Of a stretch of DNA of 37,916 nucleotides, positions 2,263 through 26,522 are shown piece after piece; the stretch's first letter is position 1, and every line of letters starts with the position of its first letter. This DNA comes from a virus, in IMG/VR virus record IMGVR_UViG_3300037485_002027, positions 1 through 37,916 of that record; one strand, written 5' to 3'. The position numbers and the translations under genes are program-made. The notes beneath the pieces were generated by a model. The model worked only from the letters and a program-made list of their open reading frames with translations, had not been told where the DNA came from and ran no database searches.

Positions 2263-2610
2263 TCAATTTTCCATTTTCGATTTTCTGGCGACACAGGTTA
2301 GGCACGTTCGATTGTCAATCAAACACGGTGTTACGGTCTTTCCTTTGATATACTGACAATCCCGGTACCAGTGGACTTTACTGGTCGTTGAAATTGACCA
2401 GCCGAACGGAGGCATCAGGCTATTATAAAGATCGCTGTCGGCCTGATCAACCTGGCCATCTAAGTTTAGGTCACCGTACTGGATTTGGTGCTGTTGCCAT
2501 CGATGGCCAAGGTTGTGCTGGCTGAGCCAGTTGTCGGTAATCAGCGTATAGCTCGGCTGGCCGGTAAACGAGGTATAAGATAATAATAGCGATACAATAT
2601 AGGTATTCAT
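2263..2610 (-). CDS. Small protein with dockerin-like EF-hand and Cys cluster
   Basis: The 115-residue protein has a short hydrophobic N-terminus and one dockerin-type calcium loop (GDLNLDGQVDQADSDLY, about residues 46-62). The C-terminal part has Cys/His (HWYRDC, C96, CLTC at 103-106) that may bind zinc. Its start overlaps the stop of the hub gene (TAATG), indicating translational coupling. Its last residues (KSKMEN) and its TGA stop come from the heptamer repeat. Only one EF-hand repeat is present, whereas classical dockerins have two. Dockerins bind cohesins in host surface complexes; what this one binds is unknown. Confidence 0.65.
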   Translation of the reverse strand: MNTYIVSLLLSYTSFTGQPSYTLITDNWLSQHNLGHRWQQHQIQYGDLNLDGQVDQADSDLYNSLMPPFGWSISTTSKVHWYRDCQYIKGKTVTPCLIDNRTCLTCVARKSKMEN

Positions 2611-4729: not shown

Positions 4730-4768
4730 AAGTTCTTAGTTCTTAGTTCTTAGTTCGGAGTTCGAAGA
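4730..4768 (-). repeat. AAGAACT heptamer array
   Basis: Four consecutive copies of a 7-base unit (AGTTCTT on the plus strand, AAGAACT in the sense of the genes) followed by degenerate copies fill the gap before the hub gene. The same family occurs near 7620, 12744, 21866, 25540 and 30018. Confidence 0.8.
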
Positions 4769-4775
4769 AAAAACA

Positions 4776-6643: not shown

Positions 6644-6650
6644 GATGAGC

Positions 6651-6678
6651 CTCCAGCCGCCAGCTTCCAGCGGCCAGC
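6651..6678 (-). repeat. CCAGCTT/CCAGCGG heptamer array carrying a ribosome binding site
   Basis: Seven-base units (CCAGCCG, CCAGCTT, CCAGCGG, CCAGCAA on the plus strand) fill the space between the tube and tape measure genes. The last unit reads GGCTGGAGGC in the sense direction and supplies the GGAGG used by the tape measure start. The same arrangement recurs at 13365-13393. Confidence 0.8.
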
Positions 6679-6684
6679 AATCCT

Positions 6685-7602
6685 TTACGCGAAAGCGATA
6701 ATCTTGTTGGCTCCGGCCAGCGTTAGCGGCGTGGTGGAGTTATTGGTTACGGAAAAGCTGATTGAACCGTCATTAAAGGCTTTGCCGGCATCGAGCGAAC
6801 GTCCGCCGGTACCGAACTGGACGCCGTTGATGGTGATGGTCTTGTTGGCTCCGCCTGCGCCCTGCTGGACGGTTAAGACCAGCGTTCCGCGTGCGGCAAG
6901 CAGCAGGGTTGCCGCCAGGATAACCGTGGAGGTAATCGTCGAATCTTCCAGCGTCAGCGAGCCGGAGGCGTCGATGCCCGCTTCCAGGTCGGCGTCGACG
7001 GCGGTATAGCCCTTGTCGGAGTCGTTGCTGGCTTTGGCCAAGGCGATCGCCAGCGAGAAATTAAACGACCGCAGGTGATAGAGATTGATCGCCGAACCGC
7101 CCGATGGAGTAAAGGCAGCCGAGATAATCCGCCAGCCTCCGCGTGCTGCGGCGTTAAAGGTCGGGGCGGCCTGCGAATCGGTCATCGCCCAGGCATCAGA
7201 GATCACGGCGGTTTCGGAAGCGAAACGGCATTCAAACTCGGCGGAGGCGGTCATATACTGACCCTGCGACTGGCTGAGGCTGGCCCGGTGGATGACCGGA
7301 GCGTTTAGCTGATGCTTGATGTATCCGGTGGCGGCGGCGACGCCGGACTTGCGTTCGTAGAACACGTTGGTGCCGACTGTGCCATTTAACAAGTTGATCA
7401 TCTCAGCCCAGCACTCCCACGTCTGCGAGCCGCGAACAAACTGTGTGGCGCGTTCGACAAATGGAATCTGCAGGCCGTCAGGGGTGGATTTAACGATCTC
7501 ATCGTATCCGGCGTCGATGCGGGCGGTGGTGGCCCCGCCGGCGGTAACGCCGTTGATGACGTTGGATAAAATCAGTTTTGAACGCTTGTTTACAGTAGCC
7601 AT
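6685..7602 (-). CDS. Major tail tube protein (putative)
   Basis: The 305-residue beta-rich protein sits just upstream of the tape measure in the transcript, as tube genes do. The N-terminal 150 residues have the alternating strand pattern of siphovirus tube subunits. The last 80 residues (GTLVLTVQQGAGGANKTITI and following) look like an added Ig-like domain as seen on many tube proteins. A GGAG lies eight bases before the ATG. No sheath gene is found near it, which supports a non-contractile tail. Confidence 0.7.
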   Translation of the reverse strand: MATVNKRSKLILSNVINGVTAGGATTARIDAGYDEIVKSTPDGLQIPFVERATQFVRGSQTWECWAEMINLLNGTVGTNVFYERKSGVAAATGYIKHQLNAPVIHRASLSQSQGQYMTASAEFECRFASETAVISDAWAMTDSQAAPTFNAAARGGWRIISAAFTPSGGSAINLYHLRSFNFSLAIALAKASNDSDKGYTAVDADLEAGIDASGSLTLEDSTITSTVILAATLLLAARGTLVLTVQQGAGGANKTITINGVQFGTGGRSLDAGKAFNDGSISFSVTNNSTTPLTLAGANKIIAFA

Positions 7603-7617
7603 ATAAAAATCTCCGAT

Positions 7618-7703
7618 TTTTAGTTCTTAGTTCTTAGTTCTTAGTTAAACTGGATTCCCGCCTGCGCGGGAATGACAATGAATCTCAATTTTCAATTTAA
7701 TTT
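7618..7703 (-). repeat. Composite repeat block: AAGAACT array, dRS3-like palindrome, TTGAAAA units
   Basis: The gap between the tail terminator fusion and the tube gene contains three repeat types in a row. First are AGTTCTT heptamers at 7622-7644. Next is a 20-bp ATTCCC-N8-GGGAAT palindrome at 7654-7673 (followed by GACAA). Last are CAATTTT units at 7684-7703, which reach into the end of the terminator gene. The palindrome matches the layout of the Neisseria dRS3 repeat. No gene fits here. Confidence 0.75.
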
Positions 7704-9079
7704 GGAATCCACTGGGCTTCAAAGGATAGTTCTACGCCGTGTTTACGCGGGGCGTCGACCACTTCGCTGCCTCCGGTATAGTAGAAGTCGTCGCAGCATG
7801 CTCCGGGGTTGGAACCCTCTATCGCGGCGATGACGCTATCCCGCAATTCAATGGTGCCGACCGTCTGGTCGTCGCCGACACGGGCGGCGCCGTCTTCGTG
7901 TGATTTCTGGCCGATTAGGATCACGATGCGGATTTTGCGATTGAGATCGTAACCCCCTTCGCGGTCGGGGCCGGTGGGCTCTTCGCCGACAAACGCAAAC
8001 GGGGCGTATTTATCCCAGGCTTCCAGACCGCCTTTGTCAGCGGCAATCTGATGCTTCCAGACGCCAACGGTCTTAAAAACGCCAAGGGCAGCCAAAGAGG
8101 CCACGGCCCAGTTTTCAATATTGACAATCGCCGGGGCATCCGGGTCTTCGACGAATTCCCCTTCAGGGAGCGGATCGGAGACAAACCGATCTAAATCTGT
8201 GAGCATTAGACGCTGATACGATGTGGCGTTGATTGCAAGCTCATTCGTCGAGTCGTCGGCTACGGCGGCTGCCATCGAGGGGAACGCCCCGCCGATATAA
8301 ATCGTCGAATCCCCTGCGGGAGCGGCGATGTAATCCAGATCGAGCGTGATATGTGAATCAGTTCTCTCGGTGATCCGGTACACGCCGCTGGGATAGGTAT
8401 CGGCAAAGATGCAGCGAATCAGGCTGCCAGGTACCGCTATCCAAGAATTAAAAGAGCCATGCAGCTTTAATTTTCCAGAGCCAGTTTGGTGATCATAAGG
8501 CGTCACAACCCTTGTCTGGATTGGGCCGCCATTGGCGTCCATGTGCGTGGCAAGGTCTGGATAGGCAGCCAATGCAGTCAGCGTGACGCCGCCTGCTGAG
8601 TTGGCCGATCCGGCCTTGGTGCCGATGCCGCCGATAAAGTGGACGGTGTCCTCTTTAAGGTTGCTGGCAAGGCCGTCCGGATCGCGGCGATAGACGCCGG
8701 GCAAGGCGGGCGTGGCCGTCTGTGTTGCCGTGATGGCGCCGTATAGGATGCGGTAGTCCTCGTGCGATGGCAGGATATAGTCTGTTGGATAGCCGCCGAC
8801 TACGGCGTTGGTTATGGAGATTCGCAGGCTGCCTTCGGTGTCGGTGTTGGCAGCCGAGAGCGTGAGGGTCGCAAGTCCGTGCCCGGTTAAGGTGATAATG
8901 TTATCGCCAGTGGTTTTCGACAGCGTTAAAATCTGCGACGTTGCGTTTTTGACCAGCTCGCAGGTTAGCTTGGTTGGATCAAAGGTCGCATTATCGGTCA
9001 GGAGCGTCTTGCCATCGGCCCAATCAACCAAGGGGCCTACTACGACGGTGACGGCGGTATTTTTTCGGAGGTATCTCAT
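7697..9079 (-). CDS. Fused tail terminator-like protein
   Basis: The 460-residue protein appears to join two parts. The first 120 residues (MRYLRKNTAVTVVVGPLVDW and on) are a beta-rich domain widespread in phage virion proteins. The last 150 residues (NIENWAVASLAALGVFKTVG and on, ending ELSFEAQWIPN) look like Mu gp37/DUF1834-type tail terminator proteins that close the head-proximal end of the tail. Position between connector genes and the tube gene fits that role. The ATG overlaps the preceding TGA (ATGA) and has GAGGGG four bases upstream. The central part is unassigned. The terminator call rests on general similarity and position. Confidence 0.6.
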   Translation of the reverse strand: MRYLRKNTAVTVVVGPLVDWADGKTLLTDNATFDPTKLTCELVKNATSQILTLSKTTGDNIITLTGHGLATLTLSAANTDTEGSLRISITNAVVGGYPTDYILPSHEDYRILYGAITATQTATPALPGVYRRDPDGLASNLKEDTVHFIGGIGTKAGSANSAGGVTLTALAAYPDLATHMDANGGPIQTRVVTPYDHQTGSGKLKLHGSFNSWIAVPGSLIRCIFADTYPSGVYRITERTDSHITLDLDYIAAPAGDSTIYIGGAFPSMAAAVADDSTNELAINATSYQRLMLTDLDRFVSDPLPEGEFVEDPDAPAIVNIENWAVASLAALGVFKTVGVWKHQIAADKGGLEAWDKYAPFAFVGEEPTGPDREGGYDLNRKIRIVILIGQKSHEDGAARVGDDQTVGTIELRDSVIAAIEGSNPGACCDDFYYTGGSEVVDAPRKHGVELSFEAQWIPN

Positions 9080-10395
9080 TTTGCCCCTCGGTAGTTTTGC
9101 TGGACTGACACATCCTGAAATGGGTCAAAGTACGGCAGCCATGAGACGTGATCGAGCCCTGACAGCGTACCGGTTAAATGCGACGCCCGAATATCGGTGA
9201 TCGTTGTGCCAGTTCCTTCGCCCAATGGAAACAAGACGACACTGGCTACGCCAGCGAACATTATCACCTCACTGCTGTCGCCTGTACGCGGGTTAATTGA
9301 ATCGTCGATGATGAACGCATATTCATTGTTAAAATAAGCGGAAAAGAATCGCAGCTTGTCGATTTTACCCCGATAGCCGCCCGCCGCCGTCTTTGCGAGA
9401 ATGACCGGCTCGGAATTGGTAAAGTCACCTGTGACAACCACAGACTCAGTCACCTCTCCACAGCCGACTTGCAGCGTCGCAACTAATTGACTGTTGATTG
9501 TATATACACAAGCGGACAGTTCATACCACTTGCCGTCATCGAGCCGCTGATAACCATAATACTCTTTGGTCAGATAAGTCGCTGTCAGCACTGTCGGCTG
9601 GTTGTCGGTATTCCACAGCTTAAAGACGGGACGCCCGCCAACCAGGTCCATCTGCCAGCCTGCGCCGCTGGAACCGCGTTTGCTGATAAGCCCGCCGTTG
9701 GGACTGCAGGTATTGATAAAGAAGTGGACTGCCCACCCCGATTTGGCATCATAATAATTATTGTCGGCAAAGGTCACATATCCTTGACCGTCAAACGACA
9801 GGCAATCTTTGGGGTTTGCCGTTGCGGTAATTGTTACCGTGGCGGCACTGGACTGGCCGCCCATGGGCGATACGCCGCCATCATCGGCTTTAAATTGCAG
9901 TGTGTCCGCTCCAGCGGTGGCTGTCCAGTATGATACCGCGTTGCCCCAACTGCTTAGCGTGTACGGGACGTGGTCGATTTTACCGGATCCGGATTTAGGG
10001 TCATAGATCACGCCGACTGTCGGCAGACTGGTAATAACATACTTGAGCTTTGCTGGCGGATTGGGGTTGCCGTCATCTGTGGCGGTCAATGTGATCGTCT
10101 GCCAGATGTGCGTAACCGGGCTGGATGTGCCATTGCTTGCCGTCGGCGGAGCGCCAAAGCCGACGCAGCCATCCAGCCAGTACCCGGCAAAGATGGCAAA
10201 GTCGGCTAAGTCGGTATCGGCGTCACTATCTAAGTCGCCGCCGGCATTGGTCAGCCAGCTTGCAGCAAAGGTCTGCAAGTCCGCCGTGCCGACGCAGCCG
10301 TCTGCGTCAAAGTCGCCGGGGACGGCGATGGCGAAAGAGCTAAGCCAAAGCAAGGCGAGAGCGAAAATTTTCAATTTACAATTTACAATTTTCAA
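9076..10395 (-). CDS. Exported dockerin plus LamG-like protein
   Basis: A signal peptide (about residues 8-25, ALALLWLSSFAIA) is followed by a two-repeat dockerin: GDFDADGCVGTADLQTFAASW at 27-47 and GGDLDSDADTDLADFAIFA at 52-70, each ending in a WL pair. Next is an Ig/cadherin-like region (TLTATDDGNPNPPAKLKYVI), then a concanavalin/LamG-like sandwich beginning LSFDGQGYVTFADNNYYDAKSG. This is the typical build of a planctomycete surface protein. The start is TTG, eight bases after AGGA, and the first ten residues come from the TTGAAAA heptamer repeat. The stop overlaps the next gene, so it is part of the late operon. Secretion is hard to reconcile with a virion subunit. Confidence 0.75.
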   Translation of the reverse strand: MKIVNCKLKIFALALLWLSSFAIAVPGDFDADGCVGTADLQTFAASWLTNAGGDLDSDADTDLADFAIFAGYWLDGCVGFGAPPTASNGTSSPVTHIWQTITLTATDDGNPNPPAKLKYVITSLPTVGVIYDPKSGSGKIDHVPYTLSSWGNAVSYWTATAGADTLQFKADDGGVSPMGGQSSAATVTITATANPKDCLSFDGQGYVTFADNNYYDAKSGWAVHFFINTCSPNGGLISKRGSSGAGWQMDLVGGRPVFKLWNTDNQPTVLTATYLTKEYYGYQRLDDGKWYELSACVYTINSQLVATLQVGCGEVTESVVVTGDFTNSEPVILAKTAAGGYRGKIDKLRFFSAYFNNEYAFIIDDSINPRTGDSSEVIMFAGVASVVLFPLGEGTGTTITDIRASHLTGTLSGLDHVSWLPYFDPFQDVSVQQNYRGAK

Positions 10396-10405
10396 TTGTC
10401 AATTC
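10365..10405 (-). repeat. TTGAAAA-type heptamer array
   Basis: Units of TTTTCAA, TTTACAA and TTGTCAA on the plus strand span the gene border and encode the first residues of the LamG-like protein. Related arrays occur at about 17 gene borders in this window. Confidence 0.75.
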
Positions 10406-10918
10406 CTATACTCCGCCTTCGGACTCGACGATTTCGGCACAGATGCCGTAAAACTCCATCATCGATGCAATCTCGTTCGGGTCGTTGGGGTCGGTCATGT
10501 TATTGGGGTCGCTGGTAATGCTGTCGACCGCCTTTAAAAAGTCAGCATTGTGGAGTTTCTTTTCCAGCAGCTTTTGCTGCGATTTTTCGGCGATGACCTT
10601 GCACAGCTTGTCCCGCAGGCTAACCGGGCGTTTTGTGATGGTTACGGCCTGACTGATTTTGACCTTGGCCAGGTCGATATTGCTGTGGACGGCGTTGACG
10701 TCGGCGATGCGGGCGGTTAATACCTGCTGGATGGTGCCGGTGTAGGACTTGACCGGTAGCTGACGCCTTCCGGATTCGACCTTTTCGACCACCGCTTTAA
10801 CCTCGGCTTCAATGGCCGCAGCCGGATCGGGCTTTGCCGGGCCGCCGGTAACGACGACCGCCATCAGCCATGACGACATCAGCAGCACACAGAGCGATAA
10901 TCCTGTTTTGATATTCAT
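10406..10918 (-). CDS. Exported hypothetical protein
   Basis: The 170-residue protein begins with a clear signal peptide (MNIKTGLSLCVLLMSSWLMA). A helical charged region follows, with a C-terminal DPNNMTDPNDPNE linker typical of planctomycete secreted proteins. GAGG five bases before the ATG gives a good ribosome binding site. It is the third of four consecutive genes with signal peptides in the middle of the virion operon. No family is recognised. Confidence 0.65.
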   Translation of the reverse strand: MNIKTGLSLCVLLMSSWLMAVVVTGGPAKPDPAAAIEAEVKAVVEKVESGRRQLPVKSYTGTIQQVLTARIADVNAVHSNIDLAKVKISQAVTITKRPVSLRDKLCKVIAEKSQQKLLEKKLHNADFLKAVDSITSDPNNMTDPNDPNEIASMMEFYGICAEIVESEGGV

Positions 10919-10960
10919 AACAACCTCAATTTTTTATTTCCATTTTTTTAAAGCGAAACG

Positions 10961-11578
10961 TTATCCGCCCAGCATGACGCACCAGACTTTACGGTTGGCT
11001 GGGATCGAAACAAACTCGACATAGATTTTTGCGGCATTGGGCATTTTGGGGATGGCGATCATCGCAATACGATTGGCGCCGCTATTATAGATATATATGC
11101 CGCCCGGCCAGATATTGACGGCATTGGTCAGTGTGTCACACCATTTGGCGGTTAGCGTGATGGGTGTATTGGGATCGTTCGGATCAGCGATACTGGAATT
11201 AACCGCCTGACCGTCTGTTGGATTTGTGCCGACGACCATCGTGCCTACGATCGCATTGCCATCGGCAACCAACTGCGCGTGGCCGTACCTGGCAAACTTG
11301 ACATAGACCTTATACGGGATGACGGCATTGTCATTGGCGTCCGAGTAGAACTCCAATATTGCGGTGGTGTACTCTTTCGGCCAGGCGATGCTTTTATCGC
11401 TTGGCCATGCGGAATAATCGAATGCGGTCATCGCGGTATCGCCAATGCCATTGACGTCGCCAACGACCGCCGAGCGAATCGCAATAGGGGCCAAGGCGGG
11501 AGCGTCGAAGGACTCGGCATGTCCCGCCGCCGTCAGGCTAACCATTAGAATCCATGTGATGATACGATTTGTTTTCAT
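10961..11578 (-). CDS. Exported beta-rich hypothetical protein
   Basis: The 205-residue protein has a signal peptide (MKTNRIITWILMVSLTAAGHA), then mainly beta strands and a DPNDPNTPIT linker. GDVNGIGDTAMTAFDYSAW near residue 40 resembles a degenerate dockerin loop. AAGGA eight bases upstream of the ATG supports the start. It lies between two exported dockerin-bearing or dockerin-associated genes and probably works with them. Function unknown. Confidence 0.65.
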   Translation of the reverse strand: MKTNRIITWILMVSLTAAGHAESFDAPALAPIAIRSAVVGDVNGIGDTAMTAFDYSAWPSDKSIAWPKEYTTAILEFYSDANDNAVIPYKVYVKFARYGHAQLVADGNAIVGTMVVGTNPTDGQAVNSSIADPNDPNTPITLTAKWCDTLTNAVNIWPGGIYIYNSGANRIAMIAIPKMPNAAKIYVEFVSIPANRKVWCVMLGG

Positions 11579-11616
11579 GTTTTTTTTCCTTTATTTTAAA
11601 AATTCAATAGTGAAAT

Positions 11617-12144
11617 TTAACGATTTGGATTGAGCCGAGAACGTCGCCCCTGCAGTCTATTTTGTTGTATGGGTTCGCGAGGGAAATTTCGATTGATTGC
11701 CTCGACGTGAACCGGGAGGCTAATCGTAATGGTTCCCGTTGCACCGCTATTGGCCTGGTACTCTCCAAGCAGAGAGGCATCTTCCCTTGTCCACATCGCC
11801 GAGACTCCCGCCTCCGGACGATAGGTCAGAACCCATCTCTGTAATGGTATAGTTTTCCACTCCAGCATCCAGTTAGGATAAGTTCCAAATCCGTTGGGTG
11901 TATACAGATAGTAAGTAGGGCTCATTTCAATTAAGCCGGTTGACTCCACGGACTCCGGGGTTACACCTTGACCTGCTGCAATATGTAACGGATTGCTCAT
12001 AAGCCATTCCTCGGCGAGTATCGCCAAATCTAAAAGATTTACTTGTCCATCCTGATTAATGTCCGCACGCAAGCCGAAGCACGAGCTGACTGACAGCAGC
12101 AGCAGGACAAGCGAAATTTTCCATTTTTTATTTTCAATTTTCAT
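11617..12144 (-). CDS. Exported protein with single dockerin repeat
   Basis: The 175-residue protein has a signal peptide (about residues 9-24, ISLVLLLLSVSSCFG) and one clean dockerin repeat (ADINQDGQVNLLDLAILAEE, 27-46, followed by WL). The remaining 120 residues are mostly beta with no recognised domain and a basic tail. Its first ten residues, MKIENKKWKI, are encoded by the TTGAAAA heptamer repeat. It follows the connector gene by no gap. Single-repeat dockerins are rare and may pair with a second chain. Confidence 0.7.
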   Translation of the reverse strand: MKIENKKWKISLVLLLLSVSSCFGLRADINQDGQVNLLDLAILAEEWLMSNPLHIAAGQGVTPESVESTGLIEMSPTYYLYTPNGFGTYPNWMLEWKTIPLQRWVLTYRPEAGVSAMWTREDASLLGEYQANSGATGTITISLPVHVEAINRNFPREPIQQNRLQGRRSRLNPNR

Positions 12145-12741
12145 TTAAATCCCCGTCTTTTCGATTTCTTTATTCATCGACTCGGTAATATTGTCCAGTG
12201 ATTCGGTTACGCCGTCTAATAGGGCTTCGGAGGCGATGACGGTGACTTCTTTTTTCATCGCAAACAGCGCCCGGAACTTTCCCTTTTTGCCGTTTTTGCG
12301 GCCAAAGAGAAGCTGGCCGTTGGTCTTGAGGAAAAATCCATCCGGCACGCTGCGCGGGCCACCTAAATATTCTGCTTTAACTGCACCGGAACCCATCAAT
12401 GCTTCGCCGATGGGGATCGCCAGAAACTTGCTTTTGGTCGGGCGGATGACCTTGGTCTCATCGCCAAGCAGCCAGGCGTACTTGCTGACCGCCGAGGCGG
12501 GAGCGACGCCGACGACGCCATCGAAATCCGAATCCATCCAGCCCTGCACGGCTTTACGCAGATTGCCGGTGCGGGATTTGAGCGACTGGCCGGATAGGTA
12601 GTCAGAACTAATCTTGCTGGCTGCAAGAGCGACGCCGGTGTGCAGGCCGCGCGAGACGGCAGCGGACAGGAGTTTTCCGGCTTCGCCCATCTGGCGGATG
12701 GTCTGGCGGGTGTCGGCTGGGATTTCAAGGACGATTTTCAT
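12145..12741 (-). CDS. HK97 gp10-like head-tail completion protein
   Basis: The 198-residue protein has the pattern of HK97 gp10/virion morphogenesis proteins: an N-terminal helix pair with AASKISSDYLSGQSLKSRTG followed by a beta region (VVGVAPASAVSKYAWLLGDE). It sits between the head-tail connector and the tail genes, as expected for a head-closure or tail-completion role. An AAGAACT heptamer array precedes the ATG, and the only Shine-Dalgarno-like sequence lies within it. Confidence 0.7.
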   Translation of the reverse strand: MKIVLEIPADTRQTIRQMGEAGKLLSAAVSRGLHTGVALAASKISSDYLSGQSLKSRTGNLRKAVQGWMDSDFDGVVGVAPASAVSKYAWLLGDETKVIRPTKSKFLAIPIGEALMGSGAVKAEYLGGPRSVPDGFFLKTNGQLLFGRKNGKKGKFRALFAMKKEVTVIASEALLDGVTESLDNITESMNKEIEKTGI

Positions 12742-12761
12742 TGTCAGTTCTTAGTTCTTAG

Positions 12762-13355
12762 CTACAAGGACAGGCGACGGTAGGTTTCGAGAATCTGTTT
12801 GACCATTGGGAGAAGATCCATCGAGGCAAAGACATTGATGCTGCCACCCTGGAAGCTATTGCTCGATAGTCCGATGTCGTCGCGACGCTTAAAGATAAAG
12901 CACACCTGCTCGATGGCTGCCTCGCGCAGATCGGCGGGAAGCTCATGCTCGCCGGTTGACGGGGTAACCCCCGCCGCACAGTAGCCGCCGCGATAGGTGA
13001 TCTGGACGGCGTCGGGCAGATCCAGCCAGTTGCCCCAGGTGCGGTACAGTACGCCTTTTAAACCGCCGTTAACCAGGCGATAATCGGTGTTTGCCGTCAG
13101 CGCTTCTGCATTGGTATAGTCATAGTCGGCGGCCTCTTTGATGCTGGTAACCGCGATGATCGGATAGGCCATCACCTGCAGGAACTGGCCTAAGCCGGTG
13201 TAATACTCGGTGGCGTCGGCTGCCGGGGCAATGAGCGTCCGGCCCGTATAGGTCTTGGCAATGGCGGCAAACGAGTCGATCAGGCGGGTGAGCATCGCGT
13301 CGAACTCGCTGCCGATTCCTAATCTGGTTTTAATGTCGTCTAAGGTACAGAGCAT
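12762..13355 (-). CDS. Head-tail connector (gp6-like)
   Basis: The 197-residue protein starts MLCTLDDIKTRLGI, then FDAMLTRLIDSFAAIAKTYTG, the characteristic helical N-terminus of HK97 gp6-type adaptors. A beta insertion and C-terminal helices follow. These proteins form the ring below the portal. GGAGG nine bases upstream of the ATG comes from the CCAGC heptamer repeat. Confidence 0.8.
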   Translation of the reverse strand: MLCTLDDIKTRLGIGSEFDAMLTRLIDSFAAIAKTYTGRTLIAPAADATEYYTGLGQFLQVMAYPIIAVTSIKEAADYDYTNAEALTANTDYRLVNGGLKGVLYRTWGNWLDLPDAVQITYRGGYCAAGVTPSTGEHELPADLREAAIEQVCFIFKRRDDIGLSSNSFQGGSINVFASMDLLPMVKQILETYRRLSL

Positions 13356-13364
13356 GGTTAAAAG

Positions 13365-13393
13365 CCTCCAGCGGCCAGCTTCCAGCCGCCAGC
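13365..13393 (-). repeat. CCAGC heptamer array with embedded GGAGG
   Basis: Units CCAGCGG, CCAGCTT and CCAGCCG on the plus strand lie between the small Lys-rich gene and the connector gene. In the sense direction they end in GCTGGAGGC and provide the connector's ribosome binding site, as at 6651-6678. Confidence 0.8.
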
Positions 13394-13397
13394 AAAA

Positions 13398-13545: not shown

Positions 13546-14124
13546 TTAAATAGGTACGGTTTTGTAATGTCGGCATATCACCTGCGGGTCAAACCGGACA
13601 CGCAAGCCTGCCGCGTTGCATTTTTTGAAAAAATAGACATCCTCGCTCTGCTGGGTACCATCTTCAAATTCTGTCCATTTAAACCACGGCCACGGCATGT
13701 TCTCTAATACGCCCCGCCGGATCAGCAGGCAGCCAGCCCCGCCCGCATCGGCCCAGAATGGGTTCTTATCATCGGGGAGTTTGTCGTGCAGATAATACTT
13801 GCCATCCCGGCAGTCGTGGGAGGCCCACTTAAACCCGGTAGGCATCGTCAGCCGATAACATCCGCTGGCCAGATCGGTGTTGCAGTCCAGCAGCCGCTTT
13901 AAGGTATTGACCGGAGGCTCAACATCGGAATCCAGCGTCAGCAGGTGCGTATATTCCGGATTTTGCAGAAATACACGGACAATGCTATTGCGGGCATAAT
14001 CAATGGGTCTGCCTTTAACAAACAGCGGAAGACCGCCAACGCTTAGAGCGATCTGCGTTGCGGCGGCGGCCACTATCGGCTCTATGGTTTCCCAGTATGG
14101 GATGGTTACTAATACTTTGGTCAT
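13546..14124 (-). CDS. Glycosyltransferase, GT-A type
   Basis: The 192-residue protein starts MTKVLVTIPYWE and contains a GT-A-like core: RPIDYARNSIVRVFLQ, then LLTLDSDVEPP with the metal/nucleotide-sugar DSD motif at residues 65-67. A later WADAGGAGCLLIRRGVLE plus EDVYFFKKCNAAGLRVRFD match the acceptor and C-terminal signature of family-2-like transferases. AGGA seven bases before the ATG supports this start over the longer one at 14148. It lies between the capsid-associated gene and the connector gene, so a virion protein is a possible acceptor. The sugar and target are unknown. Confidence 0.75.
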   Translation of the reverse strand: MTKVLVTIPYWETIEPIVAAAATQIALSVGGLPLFVKGRPIDYARNSIVRVFLQNPEYTHLLTLDSDVEPPVNTLKRLLDCNTDLASGCYRLTMPTGFKWASHDCRDGKYYLHDKLPDDKNPFWADAGGAGCLLIRRGVLENMPWPWFKWTEFEDGTQQSEDVYFFKKCNAAGLRVRFDPQVICRHYKTVPI

Positions 14125-14136
14125 TTTTGTTTCCTG

Positions 14137-14165
14137 AAAACCGCCCACCTTTTGGCGGGCGGTTT
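14137..14165 (-). terminator. Hairpin terminator inside the late operon
   Basis: AAACCGCCCGCC and GGTGGGCGGTTT pair over 12 positions (one G-U) around an AAAA loop, ending in TTTT on the minus strand. It lies between the capsid-associated gene and the glycosyltransferase. It could end much of the strong capsid transcript and lower expression of downstream genes. The U-run is short, so partial readthrough is likely. Confidence 0.6.
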
Positions 14166-16832: not shown

Positions 16833-19178
16833 TTAATTTTCCATTTCAGATTCGGTTAAGACCGACTTGGTCTGGTAATAGTCCTCGATGCTTAGGGCCT
16901 TGCCGCCGGCCTGCAGGGCGGTTACCATGCAGCGGCAGTTGACGCGGTTGGCAGCGGAGGCTGACGGATCGCCGGGATAACGCAGCCATTCATTGGCAAT
17001 TGAAAACGGCTGGTCGAGCGGGATGCCCTTGGCATAATCGACTTCAGCCTGACGGTGGGCGGGACGGACGATATTGTCCCGGCTGGTCAGCCAGCCTTTG
17101 AGCTCGACACCGGCGGCCTTAAAGCCTTCGTGGCGGCCTGCGGAAACTGCAGCGGCGGTTTCGGTGCGGGCAATCCGCATGGCCTTGGGCAGGTTGCCGC
17201 CCTCGCCATAGATGCCTTTGATGCGGTCAGCTAATTCCGCAAGCCCTTCTTCTTTGGCCAGCCCATCGGAAAGCTGCTTTTCAATCTGCTTTTGCGTGGT
17301 GCGGTTGACCGACTCTATGTGGTGCAGACTGGTTGCCAATATCTGGCGGACAACGGGACTGCTGACGGCCTGTTTGACGGCGGCTTTCAATACCTCACCT
17401 TCGGTGCCCTGAACTTCCGAAATCGATTGGGCGGCGCCCAGATTGACGGCACGGTCAAAAAAAGATTTGTGGATCATCTTGAGCTTGCCGTTTTCTTTAA
17501 CCAGGCTAAACTGCACCCGCATGATGATATCCGGGGTGGACTTGGTAACGGATTTTTCAACCGCGTTTAAGGCCGATTTAAGGCTGTCTAAAATCACCCG
17601 CTGCTGACGGATAAAGTATGTCCGCATGGCGGCGTTGTATTCTTTTTCCAGCGGCTGAAATGAGCGGACATAGGATTTCCATATCCGCGTGCGGCGAGAA
17701 GATTTTTCATTTTCAATTTTCAATTTTCCATTTTCAATTGATTTGGATTCCGGTTCCGTGTTGGCGGAGGCCGTTTCGTTCTCCGATTCTGCAGGTTCCT
17801 CTTCCGTCGGTTTTTCGCCCTGGCCTTCGGGGAGCGATGTAGTGCCGGTGAGCGTATCGGGGCCGCCTTCGAGAATCCATTTTGCGGGCATTAATGAGGG
17901 CTGCACCCACCAATCATCGCCCCAGGGCTGCCGCTCAAAGGGCAAATCGTAAGCGTCGATGATGGCGTTGAGGGGGATGCCGTGGTCGCGATACCTTAAG
18001 ACCTGATCGGTACGCTGGCGGGATAGCTCCTGAACCGTCGGGTGGCTATCGACGTCAAACCACGCGAACAGGTCGGCAGTCATGGCCGCCGCTTTGATTG
18101 CGGCGTGGCGATAATGGGACAGCCGCTTGAGCGAGGTGGTGCGGCCAAAGTAGGATTTAGCCTGCTGCGGGCTGACGGATTTATGGGCGGACTTGCCGAA
18201 GCGGAAACGATACAAAATCCCCAGGGTAATCTGCTCGGCGATGTAGCTAAGCAGCGGAGCGATGGTGTTGAGAATAAACCGCTGCTGTGCGGGGCCGTGG
18301 GCAAACTGGGCTTCGGTCGATAGTCCGACAATTTCCGGGGGCACGCCGAATAGCGAACAGATCGCCTTGGAATCGAACTGGCGGAGGGCAATCATATCCA
18401 TCTCGGCCATCGTCTGGGAGATCGGTTTAACATCCGCTCCGCCGGTCATCAGTGCCCATTTGCCAGCGTTGCGGGCGCCTTTGTGGCGGGACTCGAATTG
18501 GTTAATCAGCGACTGCCGCTCGGAGTCGTCGAGCTTGACGCCGGCGGGCAGCGTAATCAGTCCGGCCAGCTTGCCGCCATTGGCCAGCGTCGCCTCATTA
18601 AAGAGCGCCGCCTGATAGGCAGCCGAAATCGAAAGTTTTCCGGCGGTTGTTGGGCCTACGCCGCGCAGGTCTTTATTGGGGTTAAAGTCAATGATCGGCC
18701 AGACGTCCTGGATGAATAGATAGGTCGATTGGCCATTGGCCAGCACCATCTGGTATCCCTGCAGGACGCCATTGGTGATCTGCGGGGTGATCTGCTGCGG
18801 GCCGCAGACTAAGATCTTGGTTGGGGTTTCGATATCTTTACTGGCAAAGACCCAGTAGCATTCGCGATTGAGAGACAGATAACCGGCGGTCTCGGTAATA
18901 AACTGCGAAAAGGGCATCGCGCGGTTATTGAGCAGGAGATCATACGCCGGGCCGGACTCGACGACGTCATCGGAGCCGGTGGAGATCATCATCTGGACAG
19001 ACCGGGCGGCCTTGATAATCGCGTCGATGCAGATAAAGACCCACTCGGACTGGCTAAACGGATCGGTCGGCCTGCCGGCGGCGCCGCTGTTTAGATCATA
19101 GCCCATATCAAACAGCCGCGACAGCGGGACTGACTTGGCGTTACTTGAGGTCTGCATTTTTGTCTTTGCTTTTGCCAT
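16833..19178 (-). CDS. Portal protein fused to MuF-like head morphogenesis domain
   Basis: Residues 1 to about 430 form an HK97-type portal (FDMGYDLNSGAAGRP, then SFAQFITETAGYLSLNRECY-like core, then MIALRQFDSKAICSLFGVPP). A flexible acidic linker of about 60 residues follows. The C-terminus is a Mu gpF-type domain with RIARTETAAAVSAGRHEGF, GWLTSRDNIVRPAHRQAE and VNCRCMVTAL. At 781 residues it is close to the sum of the two families. The linker contains NGKLKIENEK, encoded by the TTGAAAA heptamer repeat. Portal and MuF are usually separate genes, so this is a genuine fusion unless a sequencing error removed a stop. MuF domains often enter the virion. Confidence 0.85.
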   Translation of the reverse strand: MAKAKTKMQTSSNAKSVPLSRLFDMGYDLNSGAAGRPTDPFSQSEWVFICIDAIIKAARSVQMMISTGSDDVVESGPAYDLLLNNRAMPFSQFITETAGYLSLNRECYWVFASKDIETPTKILVCGPQQITPQITNGVLQGYQMVLANGQSTYLFIQDVWPIIDFNPNKDLRGVGPTTAGKLSISAAYQAALFNEATLANGGKLAGLITLPAGVKLDDSERQSLINQFESRHKGARNAGKWALMTGGADVKPISQTMAEMDMIALRQFDSKAICSLFGVPPEIVGLSTEAQFAHGPAQQRFILNTIAPLLSYIAEQITLGILYRFRFGKSAHKSVSPQQAKSYFGRTTSLKRLSHYRHAAIKAAAMTADLFAWFDVDSHPTVQELSRQRTDQVLRYRDHGIPLNAIIDAYDLPFERQPWGDDWWVQPSLMPAKWILEGGPDTLTGTTSLPEGQGEKPTEEEPAESENETASANTEPESKSIENGKLKIENEKSSRRTRIWKSYVRSFQPLEKEYNAAMRTYFIRQQRVILDSLKSALNAVEKSVTKSTPDIIMRVQFSLVKENGKLKMIHKSFFDRAVNLGAAQSISEVQGTEGEVLKAAVKQAVSSPVVRQILATSLHHIESVNRTTQKQIEKQLSDGLAKEEGLAELADRIKGIYGEGGNLPKAMRIARTETAAAVSAGRHEGFKAAGVELKGWLTSRDNIVRPAHRQAEVDYAKGIPLDQPFSIANEWLRYPGDPSASAANRVNCRCMVTALQAGGKALSIEDYYQTKSVLTESEMEN
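17702..17744 (-). repeat. TTGAAAA heptamer array inside the portal-MuF linker
   Basis: Five seven-base units lie in frame inside the gene. The two units that would produce an in-frame TGA in a pure array are instead ATGGAAA and ATGAAAA, keeping the frame open and coding IENGKLKIENEK. Confidence 0.75.
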
Positions 19179-21126: not shown

Positions 21127-21168
21127 TTAATTTTAAATTCCCAATTTACAATTTTAAATTTACAATTC
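21126..21168 (-). repeat. TTTAAA/TTTACAA variant heptamer array
   Basis: Degenerate units (AATTTTAAATT, CCAATTTACAATTT, AAATTTACAATT) fill the border between the 21160-21468 gene and the small terminase. It contributes the last codons and stop of the former. Confidence 0.6.
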
Positions 21169-21472: not shown

Positions 21473-21868
21473 TTAATTCCTCCTGATTTCGGAAACGACC
21501 TGGCGGACAATCTGGCCGACGATTTCGGGCATCTTGTCGGTAATCTGGATCTGCCCCTGCATCTCGGCTAACTGCAGCGATACTTTTTCCAGTAACTGGC
21601 GGGTGTAGCCTTCGGCCCTGACCCAGTCTTCTTTGCTGACCATCGAGCGGTCGCAGTCGATCTTGCAGATGGACATCTTTTCGGCCAGGGCGGTAATGCG
21701 GGCCGAATCGGCTGACTGTTTGGCGGCGGTTGAGGCGATGGACTCTTTGAGTGACTGCATCGAAAACCATAAGGCTCCGGTGCAGATACCGGTTGCAATG
21801 CCGACGATGGTGGCCAAGATAGGCCAAAGTTCCGAGAAGTTGATTTGAGCAAGAGGTAGATAGTTCAT
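21473..21868 (-). CDS. Mu gp26-like membrane/coiled-coil protein (DUF2730 type)
   Basis: The 131-residue protein has one membrane helix near the N-terminus (LWPILATIVGIATGICTGAL), followed by a long coiled coil. This is the shape of DUF2730 proteins found next to gp27 in Mu-like phages. The ATG start arises inside an AACTATG/AACTACG heptamer run. Role unknown, possibly lysis-associated or scaffold. Confidence 0.6.
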   Translation of the reverse strand: MNYLPLAQINFSELWPILATIVGIATGICTGALWFSMQSLKESIASTAAKQSADSARITALAEKMSICKIDCDRSMVSKEDWVRAEGYTRQLLEKVSLQLAEMQGQIQITDKMPEIVGQIVRQVVSEIRRN

Positions 21869-21880
21869 AGTTCGTAGTTC

Positions 21881-22516
21881 TTAGACAAGGTTGGATTTGG
21901 CTGCGGTGGATTTGACGGTTTGGGGCAGTGAGCTTCGGACGGCGAAGACGGCCTGCTCGGTGGCAATCGACTGGACGCCGGTCTGGGCGGTGCGGAAGGC
22001 GCTTATTGCTTCCAAGCCGCCATTAGCCTCCAGCCATCGCTTGAATTCCTCATTGCCCTCGACGACTTCCTTGAGCGCCTTAGCTTTGGTCTGGGCTGCC
22101 TTCAGGGCGGCGGCAACCTTGAGCCCTACGCCGCCGGTAAACAGGCCTGCGATGCCAATACCCAGCGATAGCCACCCATCGGCAGCGGACGCAATGTCGT
22201 CAATCGTGGGGCGTTTGGCGGCGTCCGTCTGGGCGGCGGCCAGCGTCGTCGGGTAGTCGGTGATCGTGGGGCTGGCGGGCAGGCCGGTGTAGGCTAATGC
22301 CGACGCGGTGCCGGATACGAGTTTCTGGGTTGCCGGGGCTCCCGCCTGGGCTCCGGCGGCGTTAACCGACTGGGCTACCTGGTAGGTATCGAGGGCAATT
22401 TGCTTTTGCGGCTCGGTGGGAGCGAGGCGGAGGGAGCAACCCAGGAATACAGGAATACAGGAACACAGGAATACAGAAATACAGGAACGCAGGGATACAG
22501 GAATACAAGAATACAT
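21881..22516 (-). CDS. Lipoprotein-like first late-operon protein with repeat-coded leader
   Basis: The 211-residue protein opens with MYSCIPVSLRSCISVFLCSC, continuing to VFLGCS. This hydrophobic Cys-rich leader is encoded entirely by nine tandem octamers. It may act as a lipoprotein signal, with FLGC as an imperfect lipobox. Ala/Thr-rich sequence follows, then a membrane-like segment (WLSLGIGIAGLFTGGVGL) and a helical C-terminus. AAGGA six bases before the ATG supports the start. It is the first gene after the leader with the terminator-like hairpins, where Mu-like phages keep lysis genes, so a spanin or holin-related role is possible but unproven. Confidence 0.6.
   Translation of the reverse strand: MYSCIPVSLRSCISVFLCSCIPVFLGCSLRLAPTEPQKQIALDTYQVAQSVNAAGAQAGAPATQKLVSGTASALAYTGLPASPTITDYPTTLAAAQTDAAKRPTIDDIASAADGWLSLGIGIAGLFTGGVGLKVAAALKAAQTKAKALKEVVEGNEEFKRWLEANGGLEAISAFRTAQTGVQSIATEQAVFAVRSSLPQTVKSTAAKSNLV
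22441..22515 (-). repeat. Nine-copy octamer array (AGGAATAC)
   Basis: Eight-base units AGGAATAC with scattered changes run without interruption on the plus strand, ending at the start codon of the lipoprotein-like gene. Three units equal eight codons, so the peptide shows an eight-residue period (SCIPVSLR, SCISVFLC, SCIPVFLG). The same octamer occurs at 26017-26048. Confidence 0.85.
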
Positions 22517-22547
22517 TCGGAATCCTTTCCAGTTTCAGTTTCGGAAA

Positions 22548-24276: not shown

Positions 24277-24328
24277 TAACCGGTGGGCGAGGGATCGGAA
24301 ACCTAAGCCCACCAAATTTTAAAACTGG

Positions 24329-24375
24329 ATTCCCGCCTGCGCGGGAATGACAAATTAAATGCGGGAATGACAAGG
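24329..24375 (+). repeat. dRS3-like palindrome plus partial copy
   Basis: ATTCCC-GCCTGCGC-GGGAAT at 24329-24348 is followed by GACAA. After a few bases comes a partial second copy, TGCGGGAATGACAAGG. It is identical in core to the copies at 7654 and 26543. Confidence 0.75.
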
Positions 24376-24403: not shown

Positions 24404-25282
24404 ATGATTCGACAGTGGGATAAGGACAAAGGGAATTACGGGAAAAAGATTCACAAAGGGGTGGGATTTTCAATTTTCAATTTTCAATTTTCAATTTTTA
24501 TCGCCGCAGCCTCCACTGCAGCAATAATCATCATCGTTCTTAGTGCCCCCCACTGCGACGTCGCGGCTAAGTCCGCTGGTGCGGACTTAGTCTGCGACTG
24601 GGGGGATTGCAGGAATACAACTACGCACACCCTATTTCCTTCGGCGACCGCAATGGACGTCACGATGCCCCTTCAAAAGGCCTGCGCGGCTCCTAACGCG
24701 CAGGCTGATTTGAAACTTACCGGCCAGCTTCCAGCGGCCAGCTTCCAGCATAACCCAACTGCCGACAGCGAGCGTGCCGGGCAGCCTAACGACTTGACGG
24801 AACTCCGAGTGGCCACGGATGGCCGTAAGGAGGTGAACCCTGCCGCCTGTCGCGGCGGGAATGCCCGCGTCAGCGGACGCCGCTCCGCAGATCAGAAGCC
24901 AGAAGCCAGAAGCCAGAAGCCAGAAGTAAAGGAAAAGGAAATTATTTTACAGGCCGCACGACACAACGGGCTTAATGCCGACCAGACGGCGATCCTGATG
25001 GCTATCCGCCGGGCGGAAAACGGCAAGGCGGGTCGGGAGTTTGGCGTGCTGCATCCTAAGGCGGTCGATACCAACCTGCGGACACAGGCCCGGTGGGCGG
25101 CGGCGACGGTGGCGGCAAACTGGAAAAGGTTTGCGGACACAAGAACCCAAGAACTCAAGAACCCAAGAACTCAAGAATTTATTCACTTCCTGGCGGATCG
25201 GTATTGTCCGCCGTCGGTTGACCCGGTGGGGAATCGGAATTGGAAAAAGAACGTGGCTAAAATTGTAGATTGTCAATTGTAG
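24404..25282 (+). CDS. Endolysin with membrane anchor and repeat-built linker
   Basis: The last 120 residues (EIILQAARHNGLNADQTAIL and on, ending RNWKKNVAKIVDCQL) match a lysozyme/transglycosylase-like phage domain with RRAENGKAGREFGVLHP; Glu205 is the likely catalytic acid. The N-terminus has a hydrophobic helix (FSIFNFQFSIFIAAAST, then AAIIIIVLSA) suited to a signal-arrest or anchor sequence. The linker of some 140 residues is made of at least six different repeat elements in open frame. GAGG five bases before the ATG at 24404 supports this start over 24377. An endolysin among the early genes is unusual. The linker may be disordered, or it may not be translated if the true start is elsewhere; no in-frame start was found nearer the domain. 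Confidence 0.7.
   Translation: MIRQWDKDKGNYGKKIHKGVGFSIFNFQFSIFIAAASTAAIIIIVLSAPHCDVAAKSAGADLVCDWGDCRNTTTHTLFPSATAMDVTMPLQKACAAPNAQADLKLTGQLPAASFQHNPTADSERAGQPNDLTELRVATDGRKEVNPAACRGGNARVSGRRSADQKPEARSQKPEVKEKEIILQAARHNGLNADQTAILMAIRRAENGKAGREFGVLHPKAVDTNLRTQARWAAATVAANWKRFADTRTQELKNPRTQEFIHFLADRYCPPSVDPVGNRNWKKNVAKIVDCQL
24465..24500 (+). repeat. TTTTCAA heptamer array coding the endolysin membrane helix
   Basis: Four TTTTCAA units on the coding strand encode FSIFNFQFSIF. Here the array is in the opposite orientation to genes compared with most other arrays; in this orientation all three frames are free of stops. Confidence 0.8.
24546..24605 (+). repeat. 60-bp near-palindrome inside the endolysin gene
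   Basis: CCCCCCA/TGGGGGG outer arms, a GTCGC/GCGAC middle stem and a perfect CTAAGTCCGC-TGGT-GCGGACTTAG inner stem form a hairpin of about 22 pairs, with a 7-base bulge on the left. It resembles a REP or MITE-like element and is read through in frame. Confidence 0.7.
24680..24705 (+). repeat. Second palindrome inside the endolysin gene
   Basis: GCCTGCGC and GCGCAGGC are perfect 8-bp arms around a 10-base loop. It is unlike the 60-bp element and the dRS3 copies. Confidence 0.6.
24723..24749 (+). repeat. CCAGCTT/CCAGCGG heptamers inside the endolysin gene
   Basis: The array matches the family that carries ribosome binding sites at 6651 and 13365, but is in the opposite orientation to the gene. 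It codes GQLPAASFQ. Confidence 0.75.
24894..24926 (+). repeat. AGAAGCC heptamer array
   Basis: Four and a half AGAAGCC units code QKPEARSQKPE in the endolysin linker, just before the lytic domain. Confidence 0.8.
25141..25177 (+). repeat. AAGAACCC/AAGAACTC octamer array
   Basis: Four and a half eight-base units encode RTQELKNPRTQEF, an insertion inside the lytic domain before the conserved FLADRYCPPS. Confidence 0.8.
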
Positions 25283-25293: not shown

Positions 25294-25521
25294 ATGATCG
25301 AACAGGTTAAAGCAAAATTGATACGGAGCGGCGGGCGGTTTTACTGGAACTTTAAGTGCCCATCCTGCGGGGATAACCGGATGAGCGACGCGGGAAACTA
25401 TACCGAAGACCCGCGCAAGCAGCTTGGCAACCGGACACTGCGGTGCGGACACCTGGCGACGATTTCTGCCGAAAGCGATGAGCAGGTTAACAAAGTTTTA
25501 AAATTGAAAATTGACAATTGA
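25294..25521 (+). CDS. Small zinc-ribbon protein
   Basis: The 75-residue protein (MIEQVKAKLIRSGGRFYWNF) has a zinc-ribbon-like pair, FKCPSCGDNRMSD and LRCGHLA. It follows the endolysin by 11 bases. Its start and its tail (LKLKIDN, then TGA) are set in TTGAAAA heptamer repeats. An upstream TTG at 25270 is possible but repeat-coded. Function unknown; probably nucleic-acid binding. Confidence 0.5.
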   Translation: MIEQVKAKLIRSGGRFYWNFKCPSCGDNRMSDAGNYTEDPRKQLGNRTLRCGHLATISAESDEQVNKVLKLKIDN

Positions 25522-25557
25522 GAATTGAAAAATAAAACTACGAACTAAGAACTTTTA
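25500..25557 (+). repeat. TTGAAAA array followed by AAGAACT units
   Basis: AAATTGAAAATTGACAATTG and further units run to 25535, followed by ACTACGAACTAAGAACTTTT. In both families the orientation relative to the gene is the same as in the minus-strand operon. Confidence 0.75.
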
Positions 25558-26049: not shown

Positions 26050-26051
26050 CG

Positions 26052-26522
26052 ATGGTTTCGATTAATACGACAGAGCAACAGCAATATCAGCCGCCTATGG
26101 TGGATGGGGTGGTGTGTCCGGAATGCTATAAACCGATTATCGCGCCGTTTATGGCGCCGGACAGCGTGCTGGAATCAAGCCCCGTCAAACGCCGCAGCTA
26201 TAATGGCTGGTGCTGCCACTGCGACAAATCGTTTCTTGTGCTGCAGTTCTTGACCTCCGACGGGCGATGGGTTATCGAGAAATTTGCAAAAATGAAAGCG
26301 GTGTATGTCTTTGACGGGGATTGGGTCGATGTACATAAGCCCCTCATCAAGCAATCACCCGCACCGCTGATCCAGACGGGGCCGGGCGGGGACTACAGCA
26401 AGCCAACCAGCGGCGATCAGGTCAACGCCACAATCCAGCAGGCCAAGGATGTGCTGATCAAGGCCGTTGGGGTTATTGGCGAAGTTAAAGATGTGCTCAA
26501 TAAATTGAAAATTGAGAATTGA
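26052..26522 (+). CDS. Zinc-ribbon-containing early protein
   Basis: The 156-residue protein has VVCPECYKPII and WCCHCDKSFLVLQF, a likely zinc ribbon. A small beta region and a helical C-terminus (QVNATIQQAKDVLIKAVGVI) follow, ending in KLKIEN from the heptamer repeat. The AAGGA in the upstream octamer repeat fixes the start. No family is recognised; it is in the early operon ahead of the transposase. Confidence 0.6.
   Translation: MVSINTTEQQQYQPPMVDGVVCPECYKPIIAPFMAPDSVLESSPVKRRSYNGWCCHCDKSFLVLQFLTSDGRWVIEKFAKMKAVYVFDGDWVDVHKPLIKQSPAPLIQTGPGGDYSKPTSGDQVNATIQQAKDVLIKAVGVIGEVKDVLNKLKIEN

Follow-up and report, generated by a model that had tools for sequence, protein, structure and literature searches.

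Why would a phage keep genes for apparently exported proteins inside the block that builds its virion? The question is raised by a viral DNA stretch of 37,916 nucleotides from IMG/VR (the window), in which four consecutive genes, C1 to C4 (9076-12144), lie on the minus strand, codirectional with the virion genes. The first-pass annotation had given their neighbors as a head-tail completion gene on one side and the tail terminator gene on the other, and the ORF coordinates and flanks agree with this. The upstream neighbor, g12145 (12145-12741, minus strand), was assigned as the head-tail completion gene by synteny, its homologs preceding the terminator in 45 relatives.

Signal peptides were called from the sequence with a crude, simple rule covering the N-, H- and C-regions. 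All four proteins begin with a K- or R-bearing N-region, an uncharged hydrophobic core and a cleavage site of small residues. The maximum 12-residue hydropathy was 2.16-2.52 in C1-C4, whereas comparable cassette proteins that are not exported did not exceed 1.64, and the same rule was passed by 5 of 705 core virion/packaging ORFs of relatives (read from the first start codon). The earlier claim of four exported proteins inside the late virion block thus stands as a prediction, with signal-peptide-like starts in 4/4, and C1-C4 are predicted to leave the cytoplasm by Sec. Judging from the operon position, the cassette would be expressed late.

C1 (11617-12144, minus strand) comprises a signal peptide (~12073-12144), one dockerin repeat (12001-12063) and a ~90-aa domain with no family match. 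Its signal peptide-dockerin part is homologous to L067 12008-12979 (79% over 29 aa, E 1.4e-10), and L135 763-1389 is a second homolog. The 3' end of C1 is possibly frameshifted; the +1 frame at 11607-11696 is protein-like, with no backing from relatives. C2 (10961-11578, minus strand; signal peptide ~11516-11578) is a beta-rich protein, with a weak homolog adjoining C3-C4 in L140 (E 5.6e-4) and a counterpart by position in L130. C3 (10406-10918, minus strand; signal peptide ~10859-10918) is small, probably helical, and was used as the cassette marker gene; homologs were found in L130 (E 3e-12), L133 (2e-18), L135 (3e-9) and L140 (6e-25, profile search). Neither C2 nor C3 had a significant match in Pfam or PHROGs.

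C4 (9076-10395, minus strand, TTG start) is the most elaborate member, with a signal peptide (10324-10395), two dockerin repeats (10252-10314 and 10174-10236), a cadherin-like domain (~9823-10155) and a laminin-G/ConA-like lectin domain (~9199-9807). Orthologs were found in L130 (E 1.8e-14), L133 (9e-74), L135 (1e-64) and L140, and a profile of C4 with these orthologs matched laminin G (1okq, 1.5e-5) among the solved structures of the PDB. Single-sequence searches returned no C4 or C2 relatives among viral contigs and no C4 relatives among annotated phages; the relatives of both surfaced only through neighboring-gene and profile searches. A scan with a two-row C4 profile gave no matches, and structure prediction of C4 from three sequences reached a pLDDT of 38.

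Clear dockerin repeats had been reported in two of the genes and a degenerate loop in a third, and this held on closer analysis. C1 has one full loop (DINQDGQVNLLDL, from 12063 downwards), C4 has two (DFDADGCVGTADL at 10314 and DLDSDADTDLADF at 10236), and C2 has a degenerate dockerin-like loop (DVNGIGDTAMTAFD). We took a type I dockerin to be two D-x-D/N-x-D-G-x-V-x3-D loops with a helix after each. C4 belongs to this type by its two loops and by the match of the C4-plus-orthologs profile to solved type I dockerins (2y3n_B, 4.9e-5); C4 alone gave no Pfam dockerin match in a single-sequence search. C1, with one loop only, scored 21.2 bits against the Pfam dockerin model, just under the cut-off of 22.9. 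The strict loop pattern occurred twice in the six-frame window and 0 times in 60 codon-shuffled windows, and a looser pattern occurred 5 times against a shuffled mean of 0.03.

Further dockerin genes had been suggested near 2263 and 32930, and both were recovered. The gene at 2263-2610 (minus strand) encodes a dockerin-like protein that has one loop and lacks a clear signal peptide. It is an insert separating two tail genes, which in many relatives (e.g. L022) abut or nearly do so. The gene at 32930-34306 (plus strand), in the tail-fiber region, encodes a predicted exported dockerin protein with a signal-peptide-like start, two 94-aa repeats, an FN3 domain, one clear loop (33068) and one partial loop. 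Its C-terminal part shares 48% identity with L130 1047-2012, whose start is CBM-like and lacks a signal peptide. An apparent similarity of the C1 domain to the 94-aa repeats was not significant.

The related elements are assigned to planctomycete hosts of the class Phycisphaerae. Dockerins were present in 11/11 MAGs carrying related prophages, the host MAGs hold dockerins similar to those of the cassette, and the C4 domains also occur in host proteins. Cohesin (PF00963) was found in 0/11 of these MAGs, and across the order just 9 of 159 genomes had it; the proposal that the cassette binds virions to cohesin-bearing surfaces was therefore not borne out. With a signal peptide, a type I dockerin and binding domains, the cassette proteins resemble cellulosomal and planctomycete dockerin proteins (the 'planctosome', PMC6461901), but they are phage-borne, and the 11 MAGs with related prophages lack a detected cohesin.

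The cassette slot is empty in 32 of 40 distinct relatives, indicating that the cassette is an insertion. The first-pass annotation had proposed looking for it in other phages, and we observed that it recurs as a unit. The C3-C4 order is kept in the window, L130, L133 (= IMG/VR L139), L135 and L140. Four further Phycisphaerae elements have C3-C4 together with C1, C2 or a beta-sandwich partner. They are a related prophage (at a different site), a phage whose head genes are unrelated, an IMG/VR contig and a satellite-like island. The terminase and capsid genes of L133 are non-homologous to those of the window, and the cassette again lies among head-tail genes. Across 161 genomes of the order, C3 turned up in 3, in every case within a mobile element. 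The cassette moves as a unit, a point that the first reading had missed.

The island, L140, is 12.9 kb long, with an integrase, a 22-bp att repeat in tRNA-Pro, replication genes and TerS (Terminase_2, 1.6e-15). It has no capsid genes, and no portal gene was found anywhere in the L140 genome. We classed it as a PICI-like satellite on its integrase/att, regulators, replication module and TerS. It resembles phage-inducible chromosomal islands (PICIs) in its tyrosine integrase, tRNA att site, AlpA/Cro-type regulators, replication genes, TerS and lack of capsid and portal; it differs in carrying a predicted exported lectin cassette and in its Phycisphaerae-class host. As the island is without capsid genes, the cassette there is unlikely to serve a virion of its own.

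The downstream flank, g7697, is a tail terminator fused to a former cassette member, which had also gone unnoticed. The terminator domain (residues ~313-460; 7697-8143, minus strand) was assigned by fold match and by synteny in 45 relatives: it has the gpU/p142/Mu fold (Z 13.5 to the phage Mu terminator, 12.5 to T5 p142 and 12.4 to lambda gpU), and the gene lies just upstream of the tail tube. The N-terminal ~312 aa (8144-9079, minus strand) correspond to a beta-sandwich partner and the start of a beta-helix-type protein, are without a signal peptide and are not part of the terminator in relatives. The start of g7697 overlaps the C4 stop (ATGA). A homolog of this N-terminal part is a separate gene with its own signal peptide in L133 (12887-13837, E 3e-25), suggesting that the set can function with no anchor on the virion; other homologs occur in L074 (E 3.1e-7) and L086 (E 1.3e-10). 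The model of residues 1-312, with pLDDT <50 for most, was too poor to name the fold or to test for a BppU-like domain.

Similar three-gene cassettes in the neck block either have signal peptides on almost every member or lack them throughout. Signal peptides (26 of 51 proteins) were concordant within cassettes, with 3 discordant, and 0 of 20,000 permutations was equally concordant. The signal-peptide-bearing cassettes are those of the window, L130, L133, L135, L140, L066, L073, L082 and L100 (a scan with L082 7300-8988 gave only its self-match). Carbohydrate-binding and beta-helix domains recur in the head-tail block, with laminin G in C4, beta-helices in L066 and L100, and LamG on terminators. 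Non-exported, probably virion-borne cassettes (L074, L086, L040 and others) share slots and gene order with the exported set. In L067, a signal peptide, a dockerin and a CBM-like domain are fused in frame to the tail terminator, which points to the virion. The first-pass statement that exported proteins are barred from the usual cytoplasmic assembly may therefore not hold in every case. Both the shared slots and the L067 fusion speak against a host-surface reading.

Our leading interpretation, held tentatively and at somewhat less than an even chance, is that C1-C4 form an accessory, mobile cassette whose proteins are expressed late, exported by Sec and bind surfaces, probably coating that of the host. 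Predicted export in a late block, together with the lectin-type domain of C4, makes action on the host surface, by coating or by blocking superinfection as first proposed, the best fit. That the set recurs in an unrelated virus, and also in a parasite of viruses, suggests that the proteins are dispatched late to the outside of the infected cell. Several features can be read directly from the DNA, namely the gene set and order, the signal-peptide-like starts, the domains, the position in the virion block, the start-stop overlap with the terminator, and the recurrence; from these we propose the following course. Once the late operon turns on, C3 and C4 (together with C1 and C2) would pass to the periplasm or outer surface, where the C4 laminin-G domain may bind surface or matrix polysaccharide, and the dockerin may tether the complex to a partner on the host surface, in the manner of many host dockerin proteins; C3 would serve as a chaperone or partner. 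By covering receptors on the dying cell and on its debris, the coat would give less superinfection and less wasteful re-adsorption of progeny. The cassette would be an exported version of a neck-fiber module (a small protein, a lectin or beta-helix protein, and a beta-sandwich), and it appears to be derived from, or exchanged with, neck-fiber genes. The beta-sandwich member of the window would have stayed in the cytoplasm and on the virion, as a fusion to the terminator. We sought a comparison with a superinfection or receptor-masking gene of this type and found none.

The rival that fares best, though we consider it unlikely, is a neck collar finished outside the cell, in which exported C1-C4 remain in the periplasm or on the surface and dock onto the g7697 beta-sandwich after lysis, forming lectin whiskers that keep virions close to hosts or surfaces. 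In the window and in L135, C3 and C4 are predicted to be exported and the beta-sandwich partner is not, and the window partner is joined to the terminator. The terminators of L024, L035, L072, L085 and L067 carry fused lectin, FN3 or CBM-like domains, and the same block houses homologous cassettes that have no signal peptides. However, the beta-sandwich partner of L133 is itself predicted to be exported and is fused to nothing, L140 has neither the partner nor a virion, and the signal peptides of C1-C4 argue against virion membership. To our knowledge, no phage completes its neck outside the cell. The more particular proposal, that a neck-fiber module was re-targeted through host Sec and that the lectin and its partners meet the terminator-fused anchor only after lysis, we regard as improbable. 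If true, a phage appendage would be assembled in two compartments, and whole cassettes would gain and lose their signal peptides together.

We give a similarly low weight to unused signal peptides, that is, to ordinary neck or tail fibers with tolerated hydrophobic starts, or with an internal start that yields a working cytoplasmic protein. The L067 signal peptide and dockerin, fused to an essential tail terminator, fit this reading. So does a site at the end of the C1 dockerin helix (GAGGAATGGCTTATG, 11998-12012, minus strand), where a Shine-Dalgarno-like GAGGA stands 7 nt before an in-frame ATG. We hypothesize that this ATG is a second start for a non-exported product. The same arrangement occurs in L067 and L135, and the ATG is present in 3 of 14 dockerin motifs examined, which are all three phage copies, and absent from the other 11. 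However, these three copies are mutually related and their agreement is not independent, no internal-start pattern was found in C2, C3 or C4, and signal peptides are concordant within cassettes and across unrelated phages. Lysogenic or satellite conversion, with the cassette as host-helping cargo (polysaccharide adhesion, matrix building) expressed from an integrated element, also seems unlikely: the domains are those of host exported proteins and an integrated island carries the cassette, but its place in the window, L130, L133 and L135 is inside the virion block and codirectional with it, the window C4 overlaps the terminator start, and virion operons are normally silent in lysogens.

There are partial precedents among known phage systems. 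Lambda Lom, encoded within the tail gene region, and T5 Llp, which blocks the receptor, are phage-encoded proteins targeted to the envelope. Each is a single small beta-barrel or lipoprotein, whereas the window has a multi-gene lectin/dockerin cassette, and the likeness is one of description. The neck passage structure (NPS) collar of lactococcal 936 and P335 phages has a BppU-like beta-sandwich base, a helical part and a CBM tip (PMC6669499). Like the cassette, it belongs to the accessory, variable carbohydrate-binding or beta-helix neck proteins that are present in some group members and absent in others (PMC6669499). It differs in being one polypeptide assembled in the cytoplasm, with no signal peptide mentioned in the available text of that account (PMC6669499), while the cassette consists of separate genes with predicted signal peptides. 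Our literature search found no account of such cassettes.

The phages of Phycisphaerae are little known. A recurring, mobile lectin/dockerin set that is predicted to be exported offers concrete candidates for the management of the host surface by these viruses. The existence of cassettes with and without signal peptides allows a direct test of whether a virion fiber module has become a secreted host-surface factor, or whether a phage appendage is assembled in two compartments.

The window record (37,916 bp) is that of a tailed phage, which encodes MuA-like (26876-28816) and MuB-like (28825-30006) transposition genes, an HK97-type capsid and a portal. Its tail operon lies on the minus strand and is siphophage-like. 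A capsid profile search found 14 loci in planctomycete MAGs and 80 IMG/VR contigs. Since these MAG loci were titled Planctomycetota, Planctomycetales, Phycisphaerales, Phycisphaeraceae, Phycisphaerae or Sedimentisphaerales, the host is very probably a Phycisphaerae-class planctomycete, an assignment that rests on related prophages. A glycosyltransferase-like gene (13546-14148) was also seen downstream of the capsid-proximal gene, and before the head-tail connector where readable; it is similarly placed in seven relatives (L039, L067, L073, L076, L083, L098 and L101).

We observed that in the relatives the head-tail completion gene directly precedes a tail terminator of 150-166 aa. Both genes could be read in 40 distinct relatives, and in 32 of these the slot was empty; six others had an extended terminator and/or extra genes, and two were truncated. 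Because the slot is so often empty, the comparison indicates that the window carries an insertion, consisting of four minus-strand genes (C1, 11617-12144; C2, 10961-11578; C3, 10406-10918; C4, 9076-10395) and the N-terminal 312 residues of the following gene, g7697. Gene content, gene order, domain make-up and the terminator fusion can be read directly from the sequence, as can the recurrence of the cassette and the differences in predicted compartment between homologues described below. The C-terminal 148 residues of g7697 were predicted to adopt a tail-terminator fold (pLDDT mostly >90 there), matching the terminators of Mu (Z 13.5), T5 (12.5) and lambda (gpU, 12.4). In other relatives, different display domains extend the terminator at its N- or C-terminus: LamG in L024, L035 and L085, and, by sequence reading, FN3-like plus CBM-like domains in L072 (where Pfam gave no match) and an FN3-like domain in L073. 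As L085 has a LamG-bearing copy (11001-12164) followed in tandem by a plain copy (12157-12633), the terminator fold may serve as an anchor.

The first-pass annotation had described four ORFs with signal peptide-like starts, and all four were found at the coordinates given, with N-termini of this kind in C1 (MKIENKKWKISLVLLLLSVSSCFG-LRAD), C2 (MKTNRIITWILMVSLTAAGHA-ESFD), C3 (MNIKTGLSLCVLLMSSWLMA-VVV) and C4 (MKIVNCKLKIFALALLWLSSFAIA-VPGD). Applied to 705 core genes from relatives, the same simple signal peptide rule was positive at the first start codon in five, L067 being one of them. A more distant phage (L008) likewise has four consecutive genes with such starts (6678-9184), located downstream of its head genes.

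Several short repeats were seen in the window. Tandem repeats with the 7-bp unit AATTGAN/AATTTNN, frequently located at gene junctions, form seven arrays (10366-10400, 21143-21163, 24469-24496, 25502-25529, 26503-26530, 31161-31181 and 31616-31636; none in mononucleotide shuffles, and rare in relatives), with further sites at 1629-1668, 2244-2283, 12115-12154 and 17701-17740. Some are translated: the signal peptides of C1 and C4 owe their lysine-rich beginnings to them, and in the portal gene they encode KIENGKLKIEN in frame. Other families (8-bp GGAATACA, 7-bp GTTCTTA and 7-bp CCAGCNN), many close to gene boundaries, occur at 22424-22520 and 26007-26055; at 4738-4773, 7615-7650, 12739-12774, 21855-21890 and 30012-30047; and at 6648-6680, 13363-13395 and 24712-24758. 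A palindrome-bearing repeat, AAACTGGATTCCCGCCTGCGCGGGAATGACAA, has three 35-bp copies (7647-7681, 24322-24356 and 26536-26570; 91-97% identical to the first).

Dockerin-type loops were far more frequent in the window than expected by chance, and a profile of C4 with three orthologues matched solved dockerins in its N-terminal part; its middle part matched laminin G domains. In another predicted exported dockerin protein (at 32930), a tandem 284-bp duplication (33138-33706, 94%) encodes two 94-aa repeats. Cohesin/dockerin complexes have been proposed in one lineage of freshwater planctomycetes (PMC6461901). Dockerins are encoded by each of the 11 MAGs that carry a related prophage (1 to 30 matches at threshold); no cohesin was detectable in any of these MAGs, which leaves the proposed cohesin binding unsupported. 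Across the order, cohesin was detected in 9 of 159 genomes. Most likely, the C4 dockerin acts in the way of those in the many host dockerin proteins.

The cassette had been suggested as something to look for in other phages, and adjacent C3 and C4 homologues indeed recur in four further elements (L130/L024, L133, L135 and L140). Several of the cassettes considered here and below come from short contigs. Prophage L130/L024 has C2-like, C3 (E 3e-12) and C4 (E 1.8e-14) genes, ordered as in the window but adjoining tail-fibre genes. In L133, met again as IMG/VR virus L139, terminase, capsid and tail genes are unrelated to those of the window, and a C3-C4-beta-sandwich cassette, all members with predicted signal peptides, lies among head-tail genes (C4 E 9e-74). 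In L135, C1-like, C3 and C4 genes all have predicted signal peptides and are followed by a beta-sandwich gene that lacks one. Of 161 genomes from the order, three contained a C3 profile match, always within one of these mobile elements; of 392 sampled across the phylum, one did.

A second slot, bounded by a capsid-proximal gene and the head-tail connector, is occupied by three-gene cassettes with a comparable composition (a small protein, a beta-helix or LamG protein, then a beta-sandwich protein). Every member has a predicted signal peptide in L066, L082 and L100, and the same is true of the three additional L073 genes in the slot that the window uses; no member has one in L074, L086, L080, L040, L042, L025, L097 and L107. 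The presence of predicted signal peptides is clearly bimodal across cassettes: among 17 cassettes with 51 proteins there were three exceptions, and none of 20,000 permutations was as concordant, a value that overstates the evidence since related cassettes are not independent. One exception, C4 of L130, has the hydrophobic core and failed the charge test; the others are the beta-sandwich proteins from the window and from L135. Homologues also differ in predicted compartment. L082 7300-8988 (signal peptide) and L074 14157-14813 (none) share 61% identity over 125 residues, their neighbors L082 5775-7298 and L074 12679-14160 match over the length of the former, and the N-terminus of g7697, terminator-fused without a signal peptide, matches a separate gene of L133 (12887-13837) with its own.

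The tail terminator of L067 is joined in frame to a predicted signal peptide, to the dockerin most closely related to C1 and to a CBM-like domain; if used, this signal peptide would export an essential virion protein. The related signal peptide-dockerin modules of C1, L067 and L135 all end in GAGGA(A/G)TGGCT(T/C)ATG, in which a good Shine-Dalgarno motif is followed seven bases later by an in-frame ATG; this ATG is absent from the other 11 dockerin motifs examined. Initiation there may give a second, cytoplasmic product, which we treat as no more than a lead given that the three copies are related.

That the cassette proteins form a neck collar completed extracellularly seems unlikely to us. 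A link with the neck is favored by the terminator fusion of the window and by the non-exported cassettes; among described systems, the latter come closest to the neck passage structure known from lactococcal phages (PMC6669499). Element L140 (G730:C21:32000-50000) is, from its gene content, a PICI-like satellite carrying a predicted exported cassette (C3-C4-C2, all with signal peptides). This 12.9-kb island lies in the tRNA-Pro gene of a Phycisphaerae-class genome, where it has a direct repeat of 22 bp. It encodes an integrase, a small terminase subunit, Cro and AlpA-like regulators and, for replication, DnaD-like and DnaC/IstB-like genes; no portal gene was found anywhere in that genome. Our literature search on planctomycete prophages and phage satellites turned up no papers. 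The island favors a cassette function independent of the element's own virion. We tentatively prefer a role at the host surface, at somewhat under an even chance: the proteins would be expressed late in infection, exported, and bound to the surface, where they may mask receptors or prevent re-adsorption.
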